From Bifidobacterium sp. ESL0690 (GTDB lineage Bacteria > Actinomycetota > Actinomycetes > Actinomycetales > Bifidobacteriaceae), in assembly GCF_029392315.1 (NCBI RefSeq), contig NZ_CP113939.1, forward strand, positions 1,550,001 to 1,614,000: DNA of 64,000 nt. Direction: 5' to 3'. Made by a program: the position numbers and the translations under genes. The notes below the pieces were generated by a model. The model was not told the DNA's origin. It searched no databases and saw only the letters and a program-made list of their open reading frames with translations. This document shows positions 46,443 to 61,978 of the stretch, piece after piece (within the stretch, counting starts at the first letter, position 1; each line of letters starts with the position of its first letter).

Positions 46443-47681
46443 CTATTTTCCTTTGCCAGACAATTTGTCGAGCAAAGACCGCGTGGAATCACGCAGAAGC
46501 ACTTCTTTGAAACGAACATCCGATACGACGCGCGGCAAGGGCGGGCAGCTGGCCGCACCCCGGCTTTCGACCGAAATCGAGGCGGCAAGATTGGCCAACG
46601 ACACGGCCTCGTGCAAACTCATGCCCATCAGCAGCGACGCGCACAACACCCCTGTATGGCAATCGCCGGCACCGTTAGTATCCACGGCGTGAGCCGGAAA
46701 AGCCGGAATCAGCTGCGCGGGACCTTGCTGCGAACACAGCCAGGCACCTTGGCAACCGCAGTGGACGATAAGCGGCGCATTCAATGCCCGCGCAAGTCGT
46801 GCATAGCGTTTGGATGTATTGGGAATTGGGCTTTGCGAGGACGACGTTCCCGCGGTTTCGCCGGCAAGATTATCTTCCGAAGCGTCATTTTTGGAACGAC
46901 CATTGGCTGAACCAACGTTCATTACGGGATTATTGAGCACACGGGCATCTGTTTCAGCATCACGCTCTGCCAAAGCAACGGAATCCAATCCGGCTTCTTC
47001 TATTCCCAGCCTGCTCTCGAGCAAATCGGCTTCGCTCTCGTTGCACGTCCATATCGGCCGATATTCAATGATCCGCTCCAACGTCGCCGAATCGACTTCG
47101 TCAATGACAGGTGAGACATCGAAAACCGCGGTAAATCGCTGTTGCCAGGTCTTATCCAAAAACGATAACAAAGCAACACAAGTCCCGGAAACCAACGTAT
47201 AGCCGCTGAGATAAACCACGTCGCTTCCACTGGGATGAATCTTGTCGAAAGCCGTTTTCGACACATGGCATTCGGCACCGCGAGTGGAAATGAAGGTGCG
47301 TTCGGCGTGTTTATCCGTTAACGCCACACAGAAACCGGAGTCCTCGCCTTCAAGGTTCATACCGGTATGCTCGATGCCATTTTGCGAGAGCGCGCTTTTG
47401 ATGACATCTGCCCAAGCGCCATTCCCCAATACGGAGGCGAGAGAAGCTCTTGCTCCCATCGCCCGAGCCGCGTATAGCACATTGAAACCGCAACCGCCAG
47501 CCACAGTCTGGCTATAATCCGCGAAAAGATTCTCGCCAGGGTTTGGAATGGCGGCAATCTGCATCGAGACGTCCACTATCGCCTGTCCGAGCGAAATCAC
47601 CGAACCGTGCGTAAGACGATCGACCGATCGCAAGCTGTTATCAGCATGCGATAACACCATGGAATGATTGACGCTACTCAT
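46443..47681 (-). CDS. PfkB/ribokinase-family sugar or nucleoside kinase
   Basis: 412 residues, longer than the usual 300-330. N-terminal glycine motif GGCGFNVLYAARAMGARASLASVLGNGAWAD; C-terminal signature with the catalytic Asp, AHAVDTNGAGDCHTGVL. An insert of about 60 residues (DARVLNNPVMNVGSANGRSKNDASE...SQSPIPNTSK) splits the Rossmann core after the NESEADLL segment. ATG overlaps the glycohydrolase stop (ATGA). In this operon it could phosphorylate the ribose or nucleoside made available by its neighbours. Confidence 0.9.
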   Translation of the reverse strand: MSSVNHSMVLSHADNSLRSVDRLTHGSVISLGQAIVDVSMQIAAIPNPGENLFADYSQTVAGGCGFNVLYAARAMGARASLASVLGNGAWADVIKSALSQNGIEHTGMNLEGEDSGFCVALTDKHAERTFISTRGAECHVSKTAFDKIHPSGSDVVYLSGYTLVSGTCVALLSFLDKTWQQRFTAVFDVSPVIDEVDSATLERIIEYRPIWTCNESEADLLESRLGIEEAGLDSVALAERDAETDARVLNNPVMNVGSANGRSKNDASEDNLAGETAGTSSSQSPIPNTSKRYARLARALNAPLIVHCGCQGAWLCSQQGPAQLIPAFPAHAVDTNGAGDCHTGVLCASLLMGMSLHEAVSLANLAASISVESRGAASCPPLPRVVSDVRFKEVLLRDSTRSLLDKLSGKGK

Positions 47682-52167: not shown

Positions 52168-52647
52168 TTGATTTCCTTTCGGTCGAGTATCGACGATGAC
52201 TTCAGTCTAATTCGCAGCCGATATATTCCGTAAATCAACAGAGATGAGAATATCTAACACTCAACCTGATATCAGCAACCCACTCAATGAAGCTCAGGGA
52301 GTTAGAACCCTGAGATGGCCTTGGAATTCGGGTCGATGACGTAGTAGACCACTCCTCAATGAAATTCAAGGGGGTTGGAAACCTGAGACTGGTGTCGGTA
52401 AAAGCGCCTTTGGCCACGATGTCGCCTCCTCAACGAAGCTCAGAAGGAGGAAGAAAAAACCTGAGACATGCTGTGTTCGATGAATTGACGAGACGTGGAC
52501 GTTCCTCAATGAAGCTCAGGAAGTTAGAACCCTAAGACATCGGTGTCGCCGTGGAAGAACGTTTCCTGGAACTTTCTCAATGAAGCTCAGGAAGTAAAAA
52601 CTCTGAGACGTGGTCTCTCTCCCAGCGAGCCACATCCGCAAGGTCTC

Positions 52648-52824
52648 CTCAATGAAGCTCAGGACGGTAAAGCCTAGAAACATCTTACCGACGTATCCGG
52701 CCTAATTGATTCGCATTCCTGAATAAAGCTCAGGACAGTAAAGTCCTAAGATACCGCATCCGTGAACATGTCAGTCTGCAGGCCAACCCTCAATGGAGCT
52801 CAAGACTGTAAAAAATCTTAAGAT
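52648..52824. repeat. Internal array duplication, copy A
   Basis: Three repeats and two spacers (start units 52648, 52719, 52789). The spacer around 52682-52718 (contains ACGTATCCGG and ATTGATTCG) and the next (contains CATCCGTGAACATGTCAG) have diverged relatives in the same order at 54160-54323. The flanking repeats share private variants with copy B (for example GGTAAAGCCTAGAAAC). Confidence 0.85.
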
Positions 52825-54159
52825 ATGACACTCCGAGATCCTTCAGGTCCTCTTTGGTGAACCCTCGATGAAGCTCAGGGAATTAGAACCCTGAGACCTG
52901 GCCTCCAGCGGCAAGGGGCAGGATCTTGACATCCCTCAATGAAGCTCAGGAAGTTAGAATCCTGAGACTTGCCGGTCTTGACGGGGGCGACGGCGGTAAT
53001 CCACCCTCAATGAAGCTCAGGGCATTAAAACCCTGAGACGGTGCCCTTGTTACCAGCACCTTCCTCCTGTGTGTCTCCTCAATGAAGCTCAAAGTATCAA
53101 GCCCTAAGACAACATGCTTGAACGTCCTGTGGAAAATTGCCGTACCAATCCTCAATGAAGCCCAAGGGGTTGAAACTTTGAAAGTTCGCCAGATCATCTT
53201 GTTCGGCGTTGCTGTAATCTCCTCACTACAGCTCAGAACGGTAAAGTACTGATATATACGCCACGCTGATGCCCACAGGTTTCGAAGTAGATCCTTAATG
53301 AAGCTCAGAGCGCTGAAATCCCAAGACGGCATCCTGTTCAACGACCGCGGCCGCTCGGCTCGACCCGGACTCCTCAATGAAGCTCAGAATTTAAAATCCT
53401 GAGACAAAAATCCATCATCATCCTTGACAGGATGATTGGCTGTCCTCAATGAAGCTCAGGGGAGATTAGACCCCTAAGACCAGTATTTCACGTTGTACCG
53501 ATTCCATTCGCCGTTTCCTCAATGAAGCTCAGGAAGTCGGAACCTTGAGACCCGAGGCACTAGTTGACGATGGCCATCACGCCCTGTCCTCAATGAAGCT
53601 CAGGAAGTTAGAACCCTGAGACCTCGCTTGGCTCTTGGCATTTCGCGGCGGCATGGCATCCTCAATGAAGCTTAGGGGTTGAAACCCGAGATCATAATCC
53701 CCGGCTTGACTACTACACCATCACCCATCCCCAATGAAGCTCAGGGGTTGAAACCCTGAGACGGGCATGTTGGTGCTGGGGGCAACCGGAACATAATTTC
53801 CTCAATGAAGCTCACAGAGTTAGAAACTCTGAGACCAGCGCGTCCCTGCTTTCCTGCTTGGCTATCTCTCCTCAATGAATCTCAGAGCAGTGAAACCCCA
53901 AGACATATCAATGTCGATTAGTACATCCACCTCACCGGATCCTCAATGAGGCTAAAAGAATTGAAAACCTGAGGCGAGTGAATATGAACGAGGCTGAAGA
54001 CGCTGACGACATTCCGCAATGAAGCTCAGGAAGCTAAACCCTTAAGACTCCCGTTAGCCATGACCTCCGGCGCATTGCCCAGTCCTCCTCAATGAAGCTC
54101 AGGGAATTAGAACCCTGAGACGAGCCGACCGCCGGTGTCGATTCCACCGTTCATGTCTC

Positions 54160-54323
54160 CTCAATGAAGCTCAGGACAATAAAGCCCAGAAACATCTGAT
54201 CAACGTATCCGATCTGATTCATTCGAATTGCTGAATGAAGCTCAGGACAGTAAAATCCATCCGTGAACACGTCGGCCTGCAGGTCAACCCTCAATGAAGC
54301 TCAAGATTGTAAAGCCCTAAGAC
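54160..54323. repeat. Internal array duplication, copy B
   Basis: Diverged copy of 52648-52824: repeat AATAAAGCCCAGAAAC, spacer with ACGTATCCGA and ATTCATTCG, then a repeat whose 3' part and the first bases of the next spacer are deleted (AAAATCC joined to ATCCGTGAACACGTC), then the third repeat. The deletion explains the short 59-bp period at 54231-54290. Confidence 0.85.
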
Positions 54324-54520
54324 CCTAAAACCGGAACCCTCAGCCTCAACAAACGTTATACTCAATGAAGTCCCTGAGACACCATGGAATCCGTCAAGGC
54401 CCACACGGTATGCTTCTCAATGAAACTCAGGATGTTGACACCCTGAGAAGCCTGACCCTGTGTACAGTGCTGCGTGTTAATCCGTCCTCAATGAAGTTCA
54501 GAGCATCGAAGCTTTAAAAC

Positions 54521-54835
54521 GACTAGGGTTTATTTACTCGCGCTTCGTATTCTAACAATTATTGCGAGCGCTAAGAAAAAACACGACGTCTAAATTACAA
54601 GAGTAGAAAAACATCCTAATCCACGCCAAAAGCGGTGTGAACGACAAACCACACTGAGTGGAATGATTCACCGCTCACAAACGACAAACCAGAAACATTA
54701 CCACTATGAAATTTTCAAGCATCAAAATAAATAAAACTGTTGTTAATCATCATTAAATAACTGTGGGCACTACCAAATCTCAGTATTTGTCACATTCAAG
54801 GAAAATCATTCCTAGACGTACTCAAGCTGCTGAGT
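54521..54835 (-). other. Putative CRISPR leader between array and csb3
   Basis: About 315 bp, clearly AT-rich compared with neighbours, no open frame of note. AACGACAAACCA occurs twice (54640-54651 and 54680-54691), and AGCGGTGTGAA (about 54631) faces TTCACCGCT (about 54668) as an inverted pair. Position and composition suit a leader for a leftward-transcribed array; the role of the repeats is unknown. Confidence 0.5.
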
Positions 54836-54880
54836 CTAACAAACAAATTCAGAATCGAATTGGTCGTCTCCTTTTTTCAT
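54836..54880 (-). pseudogene. 14-codon remnant reading frame coupled to csb3
   Basis: The csb3 stop overlaps an ATG (TGATG, 54878-54882) with GGGAGGTG placed as an ideal ribosome binding site inside the csb3 end. The frame reads MKKGDDQFDSEFVC and then TAG (54836-54838). All other junctions of the operon are coupled in the same way to full genes, so this looks like the start of a lost downstream gene, most simply the missing adaptation gene. The remnant is too short to identify, and chance cannot be excluded. Confidence 0.45.
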
Positions 54881-55992
54881 CAGTCACCTCCCAAGACGTC
54901 AAAAATCGTGCCTTTCTGTAACCATCGCTCTGGAGCGGAGACGTTGTTGGATTTGTATTGTGGAAACACCACGTATTGGGCGACACCTTGTTCCTTAAGC
55001 CACTGGCTACCTGCAAAAGAGTTGATCCTAGTTTCACCACTCGTGTCCTCAGAAGCACACACTTCGCAAATCGCAGCTTGCTCCAGCCACAGACTACGCA
55101 CGACGGAACGGTACTTTTGCACAGTCCAGAACTGCTCATAAAGCGGAAGAACAGCATATTGTCCAGAACTTTTGATCCTGAAAAATCCGGTTGTGGCACC
55201 TCGATTCGCCTTGGTTGATTTGGCACCCCGCTTCAATGTGGTCGATTTGAATTGAGGAAACGCCGAAACTCCAAACAACGCACACCACGCCTGAGCATTA
55301 TCGGTTTTGGTCGGCCGTCTTAATCCGGTGGGAGTACGGCTCAACTGACTGTCTTTCCCTGCCTCATCGACGACACTATTGCCCCTTAAGCCGCTCAACA
55401 CCATCTCAACCTTTCGGTTGGCCACAGCCTGGGCAAGAGGCAACAGACGTCCGGAAATAAATTCTTGCCCTCGATTACGAGCCACCATCTCCCAACTCGA
55501 TGCACCATAATCGGGAGTGTAGTTCTTATCAGTGAGATCGCCTGACCAATACGAAGGCTCTCCCAACGCACCTATATACTCATGATCCAGAGGTGTCTTC
55601 AATTGATCGATGGCTTCATGCCGATCATTCTCGAGCCTCTGCCAACATTGTCTTGTATTGGGCTTACCGAGTCGCGGACTCAATGTAGCTCTTCTGGCGG
55701 GAAGCTTCGTCGATGCCTTGAAATCATCTTCCTTTGATGATTCCCAATATTCCCCTGTCGCATTAAGCCAATAGGATTTGCTCCAACGCAACGCATGCTC
55801 ATGGACGATATCGGCGCATTGTTGCCACGAGACATCATCACTGCTTTTCAGAACCGCGTGTTCACGATCTTTCCAGCGAATCAGGCAGATCCGTTGATGG
55901 TTTGGGTCGGCGTCCTCAAGAATCGAAGCAAGTCCTACCAAATAAAGGTGCTCGAAAGCATCATTACAATTACCGCTCAATACAAGTTCCAT
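54880..55992 (-). CDS. csb3: Type I-G CRISPR-associated protein Csb3 (Cas8u2-like)
   Basis: 370 residues. Assigned from position and character: it follows cas3 in a csb1-csb2-cas3 operon and begins MELVLSGNCNDAFEHLYLVGLASIL, resembling Csb3 N-termini; it has the ADP/RNA-neutral mixed alpha/beta look of small Cas8-like subunits (GLRRPTKTDNAQAWCALFGVSAFPQF; RSLWLEQAAICEVC). It is expected to be the large-subunit-type component of the surveillance complex that helps recognise target DNA. The start is 6 bp after the cas3 stop, with AAGGAAGG about 10 nt upstream. No frameshift is seen. The family call is less sure than for its neighbours. Confidence 0.75.
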   Translation of the reverse strand: MELVLSGNCNDAFEHLYLVGLASILEDADPNHQRICLIRWKDREHAVLKSSDDVSWQQCADIVHEHALRWSKSYWLNATGEYWESSKEDDFKASTKLPARRATLSPRLGKPNTRQCWQRLENDRHEAIDQLKTPLDHEYIGALGEPSYWSGDLTDKNYTPDYGASSWEMVARNRGQEFISGRLLPLAQAVANRKVEMVLSGLRGNSVVDEAGKDSQLSRTPTGLRRPTKTDNAQAWCALFGVSAFPQFKSTTLKRGAKSTKANRGATTGFFRIKSSGQYAVLPLYEQFWTVQKYRSVVRSLWLEQAAICEVCASEDTSGETRINSFAGSQWLKEQGVAQYVVFPQYKSNNVSAPERWLQKGTIFDVLGGD

Positions 55993-55998
55993 ACTCCA

Positions 55999-58900
55999 TC
56001 AACCTTCCTTCGAGACGGTGATATCCGAAGCACGCAAAATGGCTTCAAGATAGGAGACTCCCCAGAATCCGTATTTCCAATCAGTCTGATGGACAATGGT
56101 CTGCCATACGCCTGTGTCGAACAATTTCTGCGCGCTTTCGACTACAGAATCCAACTTCAAACTTGGATTGAGTCTAATATCCTTTTCTTTCACGCTCTCG
56201 GGAAACACGGTTCCCGCGGAAGCCACGAACGCAGATCTTCCATGTCCATGCGAAGTCCCGATAAGCCTAGTAACCAAACGCGTGTCATATTCGTTATCCG
56301 TCTGGTCAGAACTAGCCCAATATTCTGCTGCAGAACGCTGTTCATGACGCCACCCGGCTAAATTCAACTCGTTTCGTTTTTGCTGTTCCCATGTAACAGA
56401 ACGGAAGTGACTTTTGGCAAGATACGTAGAGTCTTCATAGCTTTTAGCTTCTCCAAACCGATAATGTAGAAGCCTTTGGAAGCGCCAGTCCTTTTTCCCG
56501 TCATCATGATGCCGGCCGGCGTCAGCCACTTCATTACAAAGCGACTCATCAAAGCCAAGGAGCTTCATTAAATCCGAAGCACGCCTTTCGACGCATGGCT
56601 GGTGTCCATCCGACGTATTGAGATAAACCATGCGATCAGTCCCATCAATGCGAATCTCCTGCAACTCATGCTCGTCAAGGTTCGCAAGTGGTTCTATGGC
56701 CATCCAAATTTCATCATGCTGGTCATGGCTTTCCGCTTCTGTTCTTATCGCTGGATAGACAACGATTTTGGTTTTTGAATCACAGGAAGACCCAAATATC
56801 TTTCTCGCAAAAACATTCCCCAACTCATCAGCGATTTGCTGGATTGTCGGCATCACAGAATCGTCATTGTCAGATTCCGTATCTGCGCTATCAATAGCAG
56901 CCCGTTTTTTGTCCAGATTATCCAAGATACGGTAGGGTCCATCTCCATTGTCGGATAGCCGGCCCTTCAGCATCCATCCAGAGTCTTGACACTGGTTGTA
57001 CACATCGCTTTCCGTTTGATTGGCCTTGCCTCCGGAACAATCCAGCACATGGATATTTTCATTAAAGAGCGGAACCGACGTGTTAACGACCAATGTGTCA
57101 CCCGGCTGAACCAGCTTATCTAGCGACGTTTTACAATCCCATACCAAAGGCTTGCCCTCCGCCGAAGGACGGTAAATCAACAGAGGGCCAAAGTCTTTGT
57201 CCTTCTCCCCTCTTTCCCCAGATTTCGTATAGACAGCACCGATATCTTTAAGCTGACCATAACTTCGTATTGGGAATGACTCCTCAGCTACAGGGGGCGC
57301 CAAAGACACCAATTGTGCCGCGCCAGCCCCATCTTGCGGCAAATCGCGAACCACCACTCCGATGTCAGGGGCAGTCTCAGGAGATAAATCGTCGCGAAGC
57401 CATAGATTGATATCCGCTGGACTACGGGCATGCGACTCATGCTCAGCAGCCAACCGCTCATCTGTGCTTGATAGATTTTCAACGTCCCATATTTCCAAAC
57501 GCTGCAACGCCATCCGATCTAAATCGGGTATGGGAGCCGGATACTCCACGTTATTCCACACCTTCAGGTCGATGTCCGAACCAGAATTCAAGCCAAGTGA
57601 ACGCAACCAGGCCAGCGCTAAATCCAAATCCTCCGGGCGATACACCCCTTTCCTTTTCTTTTCGCCTTCGCGAACGACGACGATTATGGGACCTGTTTCG
57701 CGCAATCCTCGTCGATTCACACGTCCTGCACGCTGTACCAAAGAACTCCCCGGCGCCAATTCAGTCACTAACGCGCTGAAATCCGCATCGATACCGACCT
57801 CGAGAGTCTGCGTGCCAATGACGAACCGCAATGCGGAATCCTGCTCCGCATTACCGCAGAACGCCGAAAACACACCCTGATCTTGCAATTGGTTCTTGTC
57901 GTATGCCCTCATGGGACCAACGAAACAGCGAATCGCATCTTTCACCGAATGAGCATCGTATTGTCTGCTCTTTCGTAGTAGCTGTGCCAACACATCGGCA
58001 ACCTTGCCGGCTGTATCCACCGTATTGACAATACAACCCACAACACCGCCATGAGCGTCAAACAATTCCACGCATCGCCGCGCAATGTGTTCTGCATATT
58101 CTTTATCAGAACACTCCACCTTGTCCAAATGAACAGGTTTGGAACAAGTCAATTTACGACGAAGATACGAATCCTTTTGAAAATCTTCAACGTCTACTTT
58201 CACCGACTCGACAGCGTGCTTGTCGACCGGGGTCGCTGTAGTTCGGACAACCTGCAGAGGAAACACACACTCCGCCACTTTGCTCTTCTGCAAAACCTCC
58301 AATCGCAACACATCGGTCGCGGTCTGCGCCAACTGTCTATTGAGATGAGCCTCATCGAGAATCAGAACGGTGTCATATGCGAACAAACCCGCTTCCACGG
58401 GTCGCGCGGCTTTCGAAATGCCGTATCCGCGGAATAGCAGACGACTGCCAAACATATCGGGTGTGGCGCAAAGAATCTGGCATTGGGTCGGATAATAACG
58501 CCATTCATTCTTGACGTTATCCGCGGCCTCACCGCCACGTAAACGAGTCACTCTGCAAGGGGAAGAGACTGCTGGTTGGCGATTGCCATGAATGTCACGG
58601 ACCATGCCAGCACGGCGTATGAGGCCTTCGGCAACCTCTGAAAGAATGGGAGACTTAGCCCGCGCCTGCTCGTCTTCTAAAAGACTCGCCAGCCTCACCG
58701 CTTCCTCATACTGATCGTCGACCAGAGAACGCCGGTTCACCGTCATGACCAGCCTGCGCGGAATATGGGCAATATTCATGTCCACAAGCTGCCGTAACTC
58801 GGCATCAGCATCATCCTTGGCATGTTCCGTCTCGCATAATCCCGCAAGCGCATTGAGAAACACATGAATATCCATGACCATGGTTTTCCCCGCGCCGGTG

Positions 58901-59049
58901 GGAGCCGCGATCTCATTCGGCCATTGCGCATGCTCAAGAGCATAATGCATCAGCCGCCTTTGCCACTGATACGGTTGGCGACCATCATGAACAGCAGAGA
59001 CAAATCGGTCAAATCGCTCATCAACATAAGTTTGGATATCAGAATTCAT
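55999..59049 (-). CDS. cas3: CRISPR-associated helicase-nuclease Cas3, type I-G form with C-terminal HD domain
   Basis: 1016 residues. Unlike most Cas3 proteins the helicase comes first: Walker A APTGAGKT (residues 49-56), DEAH at 232-235 (VLILDEAHLN), motif III TTATP, motif VI QRAGRVNRRG. The nuclease HD motif lies near the C-terminus, His848-Asp849 in GRHHDDGKKDWRFQRLL, with a further conserved His in SHFRS and in GTSHGHGRS. This order is typical of type I-G/I-U. It degrades DNA marked by the Cascade-like complex. GGAGGT precedes the ATG, which overlaps the csb2 stop (ATGA). All key residues are present, so the enzyme appears functional. Confidence 0.93.
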   Translation of the reverse strand: MNSDIQTYVDERFDRFVSAVHDGRQPYQWQRRLMHYALEHAQWPNEIAAPTGAGKTMVMDIHVFLNALAGLCETEHAKDDADAELRQLVDMNIAHIPRRLVMTVNRRSLVDDQYEEAVRLASLLEDEQARAKSPILSEVAEGLIRRAGMVRDIHGNRQPAVSSPCRVTRLRGGEAADNVKNEWRYYPTQCQILCATPDMFGSRLLFRGYGISKAARPVEAGLFAYDTVLILDEAHLNRQLAQTATDVLRLEVLQKSKVAECVFPLQVVRTTATPVDKHAVESVKVDVEDFQKDSYLRRKLTCSKPVHLDKVECSDKEYAEHIARRCVELFDAHGGVVGCIVNTVDTAGKVADVLAQLLRKSRQYDAHSVKDAIRCFVGPMRAYDKNQLQDQGVFSAFCGNAEQDSALRFVIGTQTLEVGIDADFSALVTELAPGSSLVQRAGRVNRRGLRETGPIIVVVREGEKKRKGVYRPEDLDLALAWLRSLGLNSGSDIDLKVWNNVEYPAPIPDLDRMALQRLEIWDVENLSSTDERLAAEHESHARSPADINLWLRDDLSPETAPDIGVVVRDLPQDGAGAAQLVSLAPPVAEESFPIRSYGQLKDIGAVYTKSGERGEKDKDFGPLLIYRPSAEGKPLVWDCKTSLDKLVQPGDTLVVNTSVPLFNENIHVLDCSGGKANQTESDVYNQCQDSGWMLKGRLSDNGDGPYRILDNLDKKRAAIDSADTESDNDDSVMPTIQQIADELGNVFARKIFGSSCDSKTKIVVYPAIRTEAESHDQHDEIWMAIEPLANLDEHELQEIRIDGTDRMVYLNTSDGHQPCVERRASDLMKLLGFDESLCNEVADAGRHHDDGKKDWRFQRLLHYRFGEAKSYEDSTYLAKSHFRSVTWEQQKRNELNLAGWRHEQRSAAEYWASSDQTDNEYDTRLVTRLIGTSHGHGRSAFVASAGTVFPESVKEKDIRLNPSLKLDSVVESAQKLFDTGVWQTIVHQTDWKYGFWGVSYLEAILRASDITVSKEG

Positions 59050-60758
59050 AGGCGCTTACCTCCACCCACAATATCGTCAGCCAACCGCTCCGGGTAATCG
59101 ACGGGTATCAGTAATCCGCCACCCAGATGTCGGCTCTGCCCGATTGCCACGATTTCCCTTTCAGTCTTCAAATCCAAATGCAACGAGGCCATCGCGCCGA
59201 GCAATGGCGCTGATGAATCAGTCCTATGCGCGTAATCGCCCATTTGCGTTCTTGCGACGGTCCACGCTTTGGAAACCTGCACAGGAGAGTCAGCGGCCAG
59301 AACCGCGTTGACGAAACCCCAATATTCCTCTTCTTTCGAAGAAAAAGAATCTAGCTGGAAAGTGTCTCTCCATACATGGCCCACGGCCAAAGCTATATCT
59401 TCACGGGCTCTCCAACGTCGGGTTGGGTCCGCATTGGGAATGGGTCTGGTTTCCCGCAAACAGAAGGGTGAGGGCGACCACAAACGCCTGAAATGCGGAC
59501 GAACCGGTTCCCAGAACTGGGATAGATCGATATCCGTCACGGCCTTACCCAAGCGTAATGTCTCAAAATGCTTGGAGTAGTACAGTCGGCGACCGCGCAG
59601 CGACTCGCATAACGAAACAATCGTACTGATATCACTTCCAGCAGCGTCCCGCGGCACCATGACCAGGAATCCAGGCAAGCCCATTTGCTGCGACACATCT
59701 GGGTCGATTGGCAAATCTCCATCGCACAATATCTGAATGGCGACGTTATTGGCCGGTCGTTCGATGCCTGGGTCATATTTTCCCGTCAGAACTGGGGTCA
59801 CGCCGAATCCACCCAATCGCACCAGAAGACGATGCAATGCTACGCACCAAGCCACATACTGTGATTCACGTGGCCTCCACTGGTCTTTCTTCTCGTCCAA
59901 GACGTCAACCGGAATAAAAATCCCGATGGACCATGGAGCGCGAAGCTTGGACGAATCGTCTTCGGTATCAGAACGTAGATATCCAACATTGCGCACGTGC
60001 TGTGTCAGCGTATTGGAGACCACCGTCTTCTCATTTTCCGAAAAGGCGACTTTTCGTGCCTTCTGATGAGGATTTACCTTTGCGTACGCATCTTCCAACT
60101 CACGCAGATGTCCTTCTTCGGGAATCTGGAATTCCTCATTCAAGGACGCATGCCTCAACGACAGCGGTTGCTTATCGAGTATCAACGATCCGGATAGAGG
60201 ATACTTCTCTTCCTTCATCTCACGGGCATGGAGCACAACAGGAGAACAAGCCTCCCCCAGATAAGGCACTTCCCAACACAATGCCGAAATCGTGTCACAG
60301 ACCTGTTTGTCAGGGGCCGTTGACCATTGCCAAACCAAGTTACCATCGATATCGTCGTACGCCGTGGCAATACCCACCCTTGACTCCTTGAGGCTTTGGA
60401 CATCATGGAGCCCATCGACTTTTTCGATTGTTTTGGCACTCTGCCCCTTATCCCAATATCCCTTGTCCCTGTATGCGATGACATCTCTGTTCCGACGACT
60501 GTTGCGACGCATTTTACCAGGCAGATGAATTGCGTCAGGTGGATTCTGTTCAAACCATTGAAAGACAGCGGCAATGTCTCTCTCGAAAAAATGTCGTTCG
60601 TTCTCCGATGAAGCAGCATGGAATCCGAATACGGTGTGCGCCACTGAAACCAGGGCTTTGTATAGACGTTCCGGCGATGGATACGCCTCGGGCTGACCGG
60701 CATCATCCGATCCCTGATAGGTATCCATCAGAAAATGCGCGGAAATGACAAATGGCAT
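59046..60758 (-). CDS. csb2: Type I-G CRISPR-associated protein Csb2 (Cas5-Cas6 fusion type)
   Basis: 570 residues from ATG 60758 (MPFVISAHFLMDTYQG); a GTG at 60770 overlapping the csb1 stop would add four residues. Csb2 (GSU0054 family) combines a Cas5-like part, which caps the crRNA 5' handle, and a Cas6-like part, which cuts the repeat RNA. Seen here: PSPERLYKALVSVAHTVFGF near the N-terminus (typical PxRxxxALVAA-like motif), LPGKMRRNSRRNRDVIAYRDK, and a Gly-rich C-terminus RHLGGGLLIPVD like Cas6 G-loops. It is coupled to cas3 by a 4-bp overlap. Confidence 0.88.
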   Translation of the reverse strand: MPFVISAHFLMDTYQGSDDAGQPEAYPSPERLYKALVSVAHTVFGFHAASSENERHFFERDIAAVFQWFEQNPPDAIHLPGKMRRNSRRNRDVIAYRDKGYWDKGQSAKTIEKVDGLHDVQSLKESRVGIATAYDDIDGNLVWQWSTAPDKQVCDTISALCWEVPYLGEACSPVVLHAREMKEEKYPLSGSLILDKQPLSLRHASLNEEFQIPEEGHLRELEDAYAKVNPHQKARKVAFSENEKTVVSNTLTQHVRNVGYLRSDTEDDSSKLRAPWSIGIFIPVDVLDEKKDQWRPRESQYVAWCVALHRLLVRLGGFGVTPVLTGKYDPGIERPANNVAIQILCDGDLPIDPDVSQQMGLPGFLVMVPRDAAGSDISTIVSLCESLRGRRLYYSKHFETLRLGKAVTDIDLSQFWEPVRPHFRRLWSPSPFCLRETRPIPNADPTRRWRAREDIALAVGHVWRDTFQLDSFSSKEEEYWGFVNAVLAADSPVQVSKAWTVARTQMGDYAHRTDSSAPLLGAMASLHLDLKTEREIVAIGQSRHLGGGLLIPVDYPERLADDIVGGGKRL

Positions 60759-60769
60759 CTCAGCACCCA

Positions 60770-61978
60770 CTAATCATTATCAGAGTCTTTATCCGAAGCA
60801 CGGTTCGGAACCAACTCATTACCGTCCACATTCAGAATCTGCCCGTTCCAGTCAACTTTCGCTTTTTCGTGGGCCTGCTGGTAAGCCTGTTCCAACAGCT
60901 CATCAGCATGTTGAAGACTCAACATCTCCAGCTCTTCCTGCTCGCCAAAACGCTTATCCAAAATCGTCACAGGTTTTGCTGACTCACGAAGAATGCAGTT
61001 GGCGCGTAAATTCAATTCGGTGTTGCTACCAGCCATGGCGTCAAGCAGCATGGCCGCAAGTAGCGCGCGAATTGCCTCATCACCTTCCTTACCTGCGCCG
61101 AAACTCATCGAGCGCAAGGTACTAAAACTCAGCACATGAGTTCGAATGATGTTACTGACCGCGATACCGTCAAGAGAACTGCTTCTCCCGGCTGTTGGAG
61201 GAATTGCTCCAAGGCCGATTGTTGAGCCATTACCATCTTTTGTGAATTTTTTACTTGTTTTATCGGTCAAATCATCATGTATTTTATTCTCAATCTGTTG
61301 CGCCTCATCCTTATTGAACTTCATGCTTGCCGCCATCGGATCCACACGAGCACCAGCACGATACACAGGTTTCCCATCTTCTTGGTTGGCCAACACCCCG
61401 ATAATCTCTCCATTGAACGATGAGGCAATGCGAAGCTGGTTTTTGTTACGCGTCGAATCCCAAGCACCCATAGCTACCGTGATGGGAGACAAATCGAAAA
61501 TTGCACGCATATCCGCAAGAGTGGAGTTTCTGGCCTTGATGTACTCCGGCAACTGCGAAGTGGGAGTGCCATCAACCGAACCGATTCTGATGTGCGCGTC
61601 AAAAGCACGATGCGGTAGATCAACGTCCAGATAACGCTCCGGCTGGATTGTTCCGGTACCATCATCGCTTTGATAAGTGACCTGAATTCTCGGCATATTC
61701 GCAAATACCGGATGCCCGTCTTTAATGGCCTTGGAAATATAATCCTCAAGACGATTGTTTTGGGAAGTTCGGGAATCAATTAGCACCGTTTTCTTGGCTT
61801 GCCCGTCTATGAACCTGTCTTCGAACACATATGTCGATGAGGTTCCATCCAAATACTTTGCCGGCGCAACGATACCTTCAGTGCCAGCGGCAGGTTCCAG
61901 CATCGTCTTTTCGGATAATGTACTTGGCCCACCAATCTTGGCTGCGGCATTGAGATCATCCAGGCTGAGTTCACGCAT
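60770..61978 (-). CDS. csb1: Type I-G CRISPR-associated protein Csb1 (Cas7-like)
   Basis: 402 residues. Csb1 (GSU0053 family) forms the crRNA-coating backbone of the type I-G complex. Diagnostic: an N-terminal RYLDVDLPHRAFDAHIRIGS, the hallmark MGAWDSTRNKNQLRIASSFNGEIIGVL, and the Gly-rich SFGAGKEGDEAIRALLAAMLLDAM. GAGAGGA lies about 9 nt before the ATG. First full-size gene of the operon; a 47-codon ORF precedes it by 29 bp. Acidic tail ASDKDSDND. Intact. Confidence 0.9.
   Translation of the reverse strand: MRELSLDDLNAAAKIGGPSTLSEKTMLEPAAGTEGIVAPAKYLDGTSSTYVFEDRFIDGQAKKTVLIDSRTSQNNRLEDYISKAIKDGHPVFANMPRIQVTYQSDDGTGTIQPERYLDVDLPHRAFDAHIRIGSVDGTPTSQLPEYIKARNSTLADMRAIFDLSPITVAMGAWDSTRNKNQLRIASSFNGEIIGVLANQEDGKPVYRAGARVDPMAASMKFNKDEAQQIENKIHDDLTDKTSKKFTKDGNGSTIGLGAIPPTAGRSSSLDGIAVSNIIRTHVLSFSTLRSMSFGAGKEGDEAIRALLAAMLLDAMAGSNTELNLRANCILRESAKPVTILDKRFGEQEELEMLSLQHADELLEQAYQQAHEKAKVDWNGQILNVDGNELVPNRASDKDSDND

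Follow-up and report, generated by a model that had tools for sequence, protein, structure and literature searches.

The window, a stretch of 64,000 nucleotides from the genome of Bifidobacterium sp. ESL0690 (G000; one contig, 2.64 Mb), contains a type I-G CRISPR-Cas locus of a Bifidobacterium which is an adaptation-less derivative of this type. We put the probability at roughly 0.78 that its array is old, worn and patched and that it serves a maintained effector which still interferes. The effector set of cas7g (csb1), cas56g (csb2), cas3g and cas8g is complete and all four frames are open, whereas the cas4/1 fusion and cas2 are absent from the locus (Table 1). Transcription of the array probably proceeds on the minus strand, starting from the leader at the high-coordinate end. 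In this orientation the consensus repeat shows a 7-bp stem followed by CTTC and an 8-nt handle, ATTGAGGA. It agrees with the processing geometry published for type I-G systems, in which a 7-bp stem and an 8-nt handle are combined with cleavage 4 nt from the stem (PMC9638904, available portion). Scanning the leader for promoters yielded a match at chance level only, and Rfam returned a CRISPR repeat match below its threshold (22.1 bits versus 35). In a literature search of titles and abstract openings, with few subscription journals covered, we found neither a paper on the present locus nor an array in which every repeat is distinct.

Table 1 Features of the type I-G locus, with positions in the window.
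Feature	Position	Strand	Remark
CRISPR array, type I-G	52283..54520	-	32 units, 32 distinct repeats
Trailer-end units 1-5	52283..52646	-	orthologous to G089 units; spacer divergence within the range of flanking DNA
Spacer 2	52390..52427	-	homologous to head maturation protease gene, G088 prophage
Spacer 4	52539..52574	-	major head protein gene, G026 prophage; IMG/VR contig L084
Spacer 5	52610..52646	-	excisionase/DNA-binding-like gene in G087
Units 6-8, B group	52648..52822	-	spacers 6 and 7 homologous to spacers of units 27 and 28
Array core, units 11-25	53006..54086	-	15/995 (1.5%) substitutions versus G089; background ~10%
Spacer 18	53552..53587	-	endolysin gene, G088 prophage
Unit 26	54088..54158	-	spacer differs at 9/37 positions from G089 unit at the same place
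Units 27-29	54160..54323	-	diverged duplicate of units 6-8, 24/163 mismatches
Unit 30	54361..54414	-	internal deletion in repeat
Unit 32, leader-adjacent repeat	54487..54520	-	G093 type: 4 mismatches versus 12 to local repeat (ungapped, 34 nt)
Leader	54521..54740	-	boxes ATGATTCACCGCTC and CACTATGAAATTTTCAA, common to G000, G089, G082 and G093
Scar	~54740..54880 (ends approximate)	-	position occupied by cas2 and cas4/1 in G082 and G093
cas8g (csb3)	54880..55992	-	370 aa
cas3g	55999..59049	-	1016 aa
cas56g (csb2)	59046..60770	-	574 aa
cas7g (csb1)	60770..61978	-	402 aa

In the genomes G082 and G093, cas2 and the cas4/1 fusion lie between cas8g and the leader. Both genes are missing at this position in G000 and, by the same deletion, in the sister species G089; the sequences of the two can be aligned across the gap and the leader boxes are kept. 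Furthermore, cas1 was not found in the G000 genome using a model that detected it in 9 of 14 control genomes, nor was it found in G089. With the recording genes gone, no new array entries are possible. The suspicion of the preliminary description that acquisition had stopped and the effector genes had been retained is thus borne out in both parts, the effector genes being not only retained but constrained (see below).

A csb2 relative is present in 11 of 112 genomes of the genus, and these 11 loci were compared. Where cas4/1 and cas2 are present, distinct repeats numbered 1/31 in G051, 1/35 in G031, 2/35 in G101, 3/26 in G082, 7/34 in G057, 4/7 in G103 and 17/40 in G093, with the arrays of G051, G031, G101, G057 and G093 reaching the edge of the stretch examined and therefore possibly being longer. 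Variants in these loci are found mostly at the trailer end. Where the adaptation genes are missing or broken, the counts were 32/32 in G000, 30/33 in G089, 8/11 in G111 and 3/5 in G004. The last five leader-side units show the same division: they comprise a single repeat version in G082, G051, G031, G057 and G101 and two versions in G093 and G103, versus 5, 5, 4 and 3 versions in the four loci without functional adaptation genes (exact rank test for 7 versus 4 loci, p = 0.003; p = 0.008 with G000 and G089 counted as one, i.e. three events). The five versions of G000 depart from the near-identity expected of an acquiring array. G111 is an independent loss of adaptation with intact effector frames; its cas4/1 frame (L018 3039-3959) has 306 aa instead of the normal ~530 and joins the start of Cas4 to the end of Cas1. 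In G004, cas3g is interrupted, cas8g, cas4/1 and cas2 were not found in the stretch examined, and five repeats are left beside an element that adjoins the end of what is left of cas3g (L019 5877-8329) and that by reading we take to be IstA/IstB-like. Repeat load in both G111 and G004 is far below that of G000. The opposite case is seen in G103 (L022), which has both cas4/1 and cas2 but a cas3g match split in two and a csb2 match containing a stop.

The statement that no two repeats of the array are identical was confirmed for all 32 units, with repeats of ~34 nt delimited by alignment; the closest pair differs at one position and the median pair at 10. A period of 69-75 bp, given previously, proved slightly too tight, as 29 of 31 intervals measure 69-79 bp and the other two, 59 and 55 bp, are shortened by deletions in units 28 and 30. 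Spacer 15 (53329-53372) is 44 nt long, several nt above the other spacers. Mismatched positions amount to 5.4% in the first 14 nt of the repeat and to far more in the remainder, so the mutation load is uneven along the repeat. This conservation on the handle side fits either some constraint there or a drift of the repeat before acquisition. The latter is seen at the older end of the array in G093 (L017, reverse complement, first 14 units), where the older repeats depart step by step from a uniform newer set and are a record of repeat change through time in a locus that has its adaptation genes.

The variety of repeats in G000 is the product of decay plus mixed repeat types, with more than one type in one array. 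When each of the 32 units was assigned to its nearest type, 22 fell to the local type or to that of G082, which resembles it, seven to a group marked by GTAAAG (B group; units 6, 7, 8, 14, 27, 28 and 29), which was defined from the arrays themselves, and three (units 12, 30 and 32) to two G093 forms, several units being tied or distant from all types. For unit 32 the assignment was compared with decay simulated on local repeats, and 0 of 20,000 simulated repeats came as near to the G093 repeat as unit 32 does. The leader-proximal units, formerly described as among the worst, do lie far from the consensus; unit 32, though, represents a different repeat type and not a worn local copy. Likewise, in-place decay, which had been offered as the cause of the pattern, accounts for it in part only, given the mixed types, the diverged duplicate of units 6-8 and a core that was apparently exchanged recently with the sister species.

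This mixture also affects how the repeat stem is to be read. Correlation between the stem arms across all 32 units was reached by 11-35 of 5000 shuffles and, without the B group, by 125-222 of 5000; with units 30 and 32 removed as well, covariation was no longer found (633-997 of 5000). We therefore rejected compensatory stem evolution. Since the signal disappears with these units, it reflects the mixed repeat types, and the stem is not visibly maintained within the main type. The three canonical crRNA features, namely the handle CTCAAT, the GAAG and a stem with six or more of its 7 pairs, are kept together in 10 of 32 units of G000 (1, 5, 10, 11, 16-19, 22 and 26), compared to 18/33 in G089, 32/40 in G093 and 26/26 in G082. 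It is possible that, as had been suggested, a few spacers are still worth keeping.

Next to a cas56g that is 96% identical to that of G000, G089 carries an orthologous array in which 22 units can be compared and many spacers are shared, in the same order and with the same odd repeats. Uniform repeats in a sister genome had been named beforehand as the sign that would speak for an assembly error; instead, G089 has the same or nearly the same variants at the 14 shared core units. It nevertheless possesses a run of four identical repeats elsewhere in its own array. Because this run is internally unchanged and the leader-proximal G089 units carry 1, 4, 3 and 3 changes relative to it, the run looks young. 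In the trailer-end units 1-5, the two genomes differ at 3/74 positions in the first 15 nt of the repeat, 7/100 in the rest of the repeat and 21/181 in the spacers. In the core, from which unit 18 is missing in G089 (as is unit 6 outside it), the counts over the 14 shared units are 1/209, 9/265 and 5/521, respectively.

The core divergence is about one-seventh of the median between the two genomes. In 500-bp windows this median was 10.6% around the locus and 9.9% elsewhere, with two of the ten background blocks having no counterpart in G089 and the others being matched only in part. Of the 63 windows around the locus, four fell below 2.5% divergence (53000, 60000, 60500 and 61500), and all four belong to the locus itself; of 96 windows elsewhere, none did so. 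Counted for the locus against everything outside, this gives 4/19 versus 0/140 (p = 1.5e-4) at a cut chosen after the data had been seen and with low windows that are neighbours and thus perhaps two or three independent events; at a cut of 4% the counts are 4/19 versus 5/140 (p = 0.013). Besides the core, cas7g and the 5' part of cas56g also lie largely in stretches of low divergence to G089. These windows are most simply read as recent exchange within the CRISPR locus; for the array core, a recent exchange between the species of G000 and G089 is probable, an argument built on these two genomes. Selection was considered as the cause of the low core divergence and judged less likely than exchange, because repeats and spacers are both low and the cas7g/cas56g tract is low too. 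Within the core, divergence is higher in the later part of the repeat than in the spacers (9/265 versus 5/521, p = 0.02, uncorrected), so the spacers may be under some constraint.

From these observations it may be speculated, tentatively and with less than even odds, that after the loss of Cas1 and Cas2 the memory is still being renewed by finished blocks of spacers borrowed from relatives through homologous recombination above the background rate of the genome, with repeat divergence guarding the kept units from deletion. The low-divergence core, the G089 run of four identical repeats and the foreign-type leader repeat point in this direction. Somewhat more doubtful is the proposal that repeat divergence itself was favoured, in that unlike repeats recombine less and a frozen memory would lose fewer spacers. 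Degenerate repeats of CreTA units are reported to resist spacer loss (PMC9458426, in the portion available), and unit 18, one of the two units missing in G089, stands beside its most similar neighbour repeat, at a distance of 3 that is the smallest between adjacent repeats in the array (median 9). The other missing unit, unit 6, has an ordinary neighbour distance of 7, and divergence would be expected without selection too.

To assess whether the effector is maintained, we turn to its genes. Between G000 and G089, dN/dS was 0.112 for cas8g, 0.152 for cas3g, 0.126 for cas56g and 0.221 for cas7g; values for ten neighbouring genes ranged from 0.016 to 0.354. A high value (0.35) was found for the gene at 46443-47681, presumably a sugar kinase. 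In comparisons with G082 and G093, in which dS exceeds 1 for most cas genes, cas8g, cas3g and cas56g gave 0.109-0.139 and cas7g 0.035 and 0.056. Given these lower values for cas7g against 0.221, and with 11 of its changes on the G089 side and 1 on the G000 side, cas7g is less constrained in the G000/G089 pair, and its constraint may be relaxed in G089. Relative-rate counts for cas8g, cas3g and cas56g were not read as acceleration, because the history of these genes differs from that of housekeeping genes. The cas7g product is 97% identical to its G082 counterpart and the other three effector proteins only 69-75%, which indicates that the cas operon itself is mosaic.

With G103 and G004 left out of the comparison, 621 effector columns are invariant across six loci with cas4/1 and cas2. 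G000 and G089 each keep 610 of them and have their 11 changes in common; in G111, 585 are kept. Hence none of the 621 columns differs between G000 and G089, despite ~165 effector residue differences as computed from the identities. Selection has accordingly acted on the effector during most, if not all, of the period after the two split, and as far as substitution patterns tell, the effector genes are under purifying selection.

This constraint bears on a simpler account, namely that the repeats were once identical, that the whole array is a neutral fossil and that the effectors will be the next to go. In its favour, the divergence of trailer-end spacers is similar to that of the flanks, one or more canonical crRNA features are missing from 22 of 32 units and the stem is not maintained within the main type. 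We nevertheless consider such plain decay unlikely, as it leaves the foreign-type repeat, the diverged duplicate block and the low-divergence core unaccounted for, a mutation load that spares the first 15 nt of the repeat is unexpected under pure neutral decay, and the effector genes are constrained.

The spacers indicate what the effector may be directed against. Long matches to phage genes (at least 32 nt, at least 85% identity) were obtained for at least 4 of 32 spacers (2, 4, 5 and 18), a lower bound since two first-look candidates were scored per genome and ten stretches compared for matches. All four long matches have GTA at the protospacer end, corresponding to 5'-TAC in the sense of the crRNA; it begins at the last base of the protospacer for spacers 2, 5 and 18 and just after the protospacer for spacer 4. 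The site of spacer 4 in the IMG/VR contig, inside a major head protein gene, likewise has TAC. Among all matches inspected, 5 of 11 have the GTA flank. From this we infer 5'-TAC as the PAM of the G000 locus. For spacer 2, comparison by eye with the prophage target assigns one of four differences to G000 and three to G089, which is evidence of wear in place. Spacer 26 translates as DMNGGIDTGGRL in G000 and DMNGGVDTSGKL in G089, and this pair looks as if acquired from related phages; the peptide pattern of the unit was not found in a scan of viral contigs.

Several other matches were weaker. Those of spacers 15, 24 and 26, to genes that by reading we take to encode a kinase, an acidic protein and an ABC ATPase, were rejected as chance and have no GTA flank. 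Spacer 28 has two matches, of which the one in L052, a candidate target, has the flank but agrees at only 20 of 25 bases. Matches of 27 nt between a stretch of the G089 run and Paenibacillus phages (E = 0.03) were not used. A comparison of the whole array with 50,697 phage records returned no match, and the own genome yielded one weak spacer match of 22 nt among the 2 of 21 first-look candidates scored.

That the effector has a non-immune role, for example as a CreTA-like RNA guard or in gene regulation, with the array being incidental, appears quite improbable to us. It would suit the retention of effectors after loss of adaptation in both G000 and G111, and CreTA units with degenerate, recombination-resisting repeats are known (PMC9458426, available portion). 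Outside the array, however, the 64-kb window contains only two weak, chance-like matches to the repeat (2/14 and 4/18 nt mismatched), and all 19 matches of a 16-nt repeat pattern in the whole genome fall within the array, although strongly degenerate guard repeats would escape such searches. Moreover, the spacers with recognised targets correspond to head, protease, lysis and excisionase-like genes of phages, and the flank is consistent, which fits immunity. We found nothing that points to a selected role other than adaptive immunity, such as the preliminary description had hinted at. An assembly or sequencing artefact, for which only the oddness of the pattern speaks, can be dismissed, since a second, separate genome, G089, has these spacers and repeat variants in the same order.

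According to the reading that we prefer, an adaptation-less locus with a worn and patched array and a working effector, no fresh identical repeats have been gained after the loss of the recording genes, so that older units stay and mutate in place, as the comparison with G089 shows for both repeats and spacers. Part of the variety was there before, the repeat having changed over time and the array holding mixed types and a diverged duplicate block. The content of the array would still be changing through loss of units and homologous exchange of blocks with related arrays, and the 14-unit core would be a recent exchange tract, which the divergence data support. The likely current function would be that the kept leader drives transcription, Cas56g cleaves the transcript and the intact effector interferes by means of legacy spacers, which we infer from the constraint on the effector genes. 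Such interference would also be the simplest reason for the retention of the effector. Kupczok is said to have described change of CRISPR arrays by deletion and recombination in 2015. The same processes are reviewed in the available portion of PMC8047081, and the unit loss and the probable block exchange through homologous recombination described here resemble them; with cas1 not found, they are the only visible source of change in the G000 array.

Among known systems, the type I-G system (formerly I-U) of B. animalis subsp. lactis has the same effector genes, and its repeat ends, according to the accessible part of PMC4521832, in CTTCATTGAGGG, which is close to the tail of the G000 repeat; the leader is kept as well. 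Unlike in B. lactis, the cas4/1 fusion and cas2 are lacking in G000, the repeats are all different and several repeat types occur in one array. B. lactis is also reported to recognise 5'-TAT (PMC12915315, available portion), in contrast to the 5'-TAC deduced for G000. G111 is alike in its intact effectors, broken adaptation and 8/11 distinct repeats, but differs in a kept cas2 and shortened cas4/1 frame, a shorter array, 0-3 changes per unit and its independent origin. With CreTA guards, G000 shares degenerate repeats alongside a type I effector, which are reported to resist recombination; as far as the available text of PMC9458426 goes, those are one or two ectopic repeats outside an array, whereas in G000 it is the array itself, with 32 units and some phage-like spacers.

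The locus offers a natural experiment on the fate of CRISPR memory when recording stops and the effector is kept, with the sister genome G089 and the seven loci with adaptation genes as matched controls. It makes testable at what rate repeats and spacers wear, how worn a repeat can be and still yield crRNA, and whether an array is refreshed between species without Cas1. If the borrowing of spacer blocks is real, it would amount to an immune memory that is read-only but shareable.
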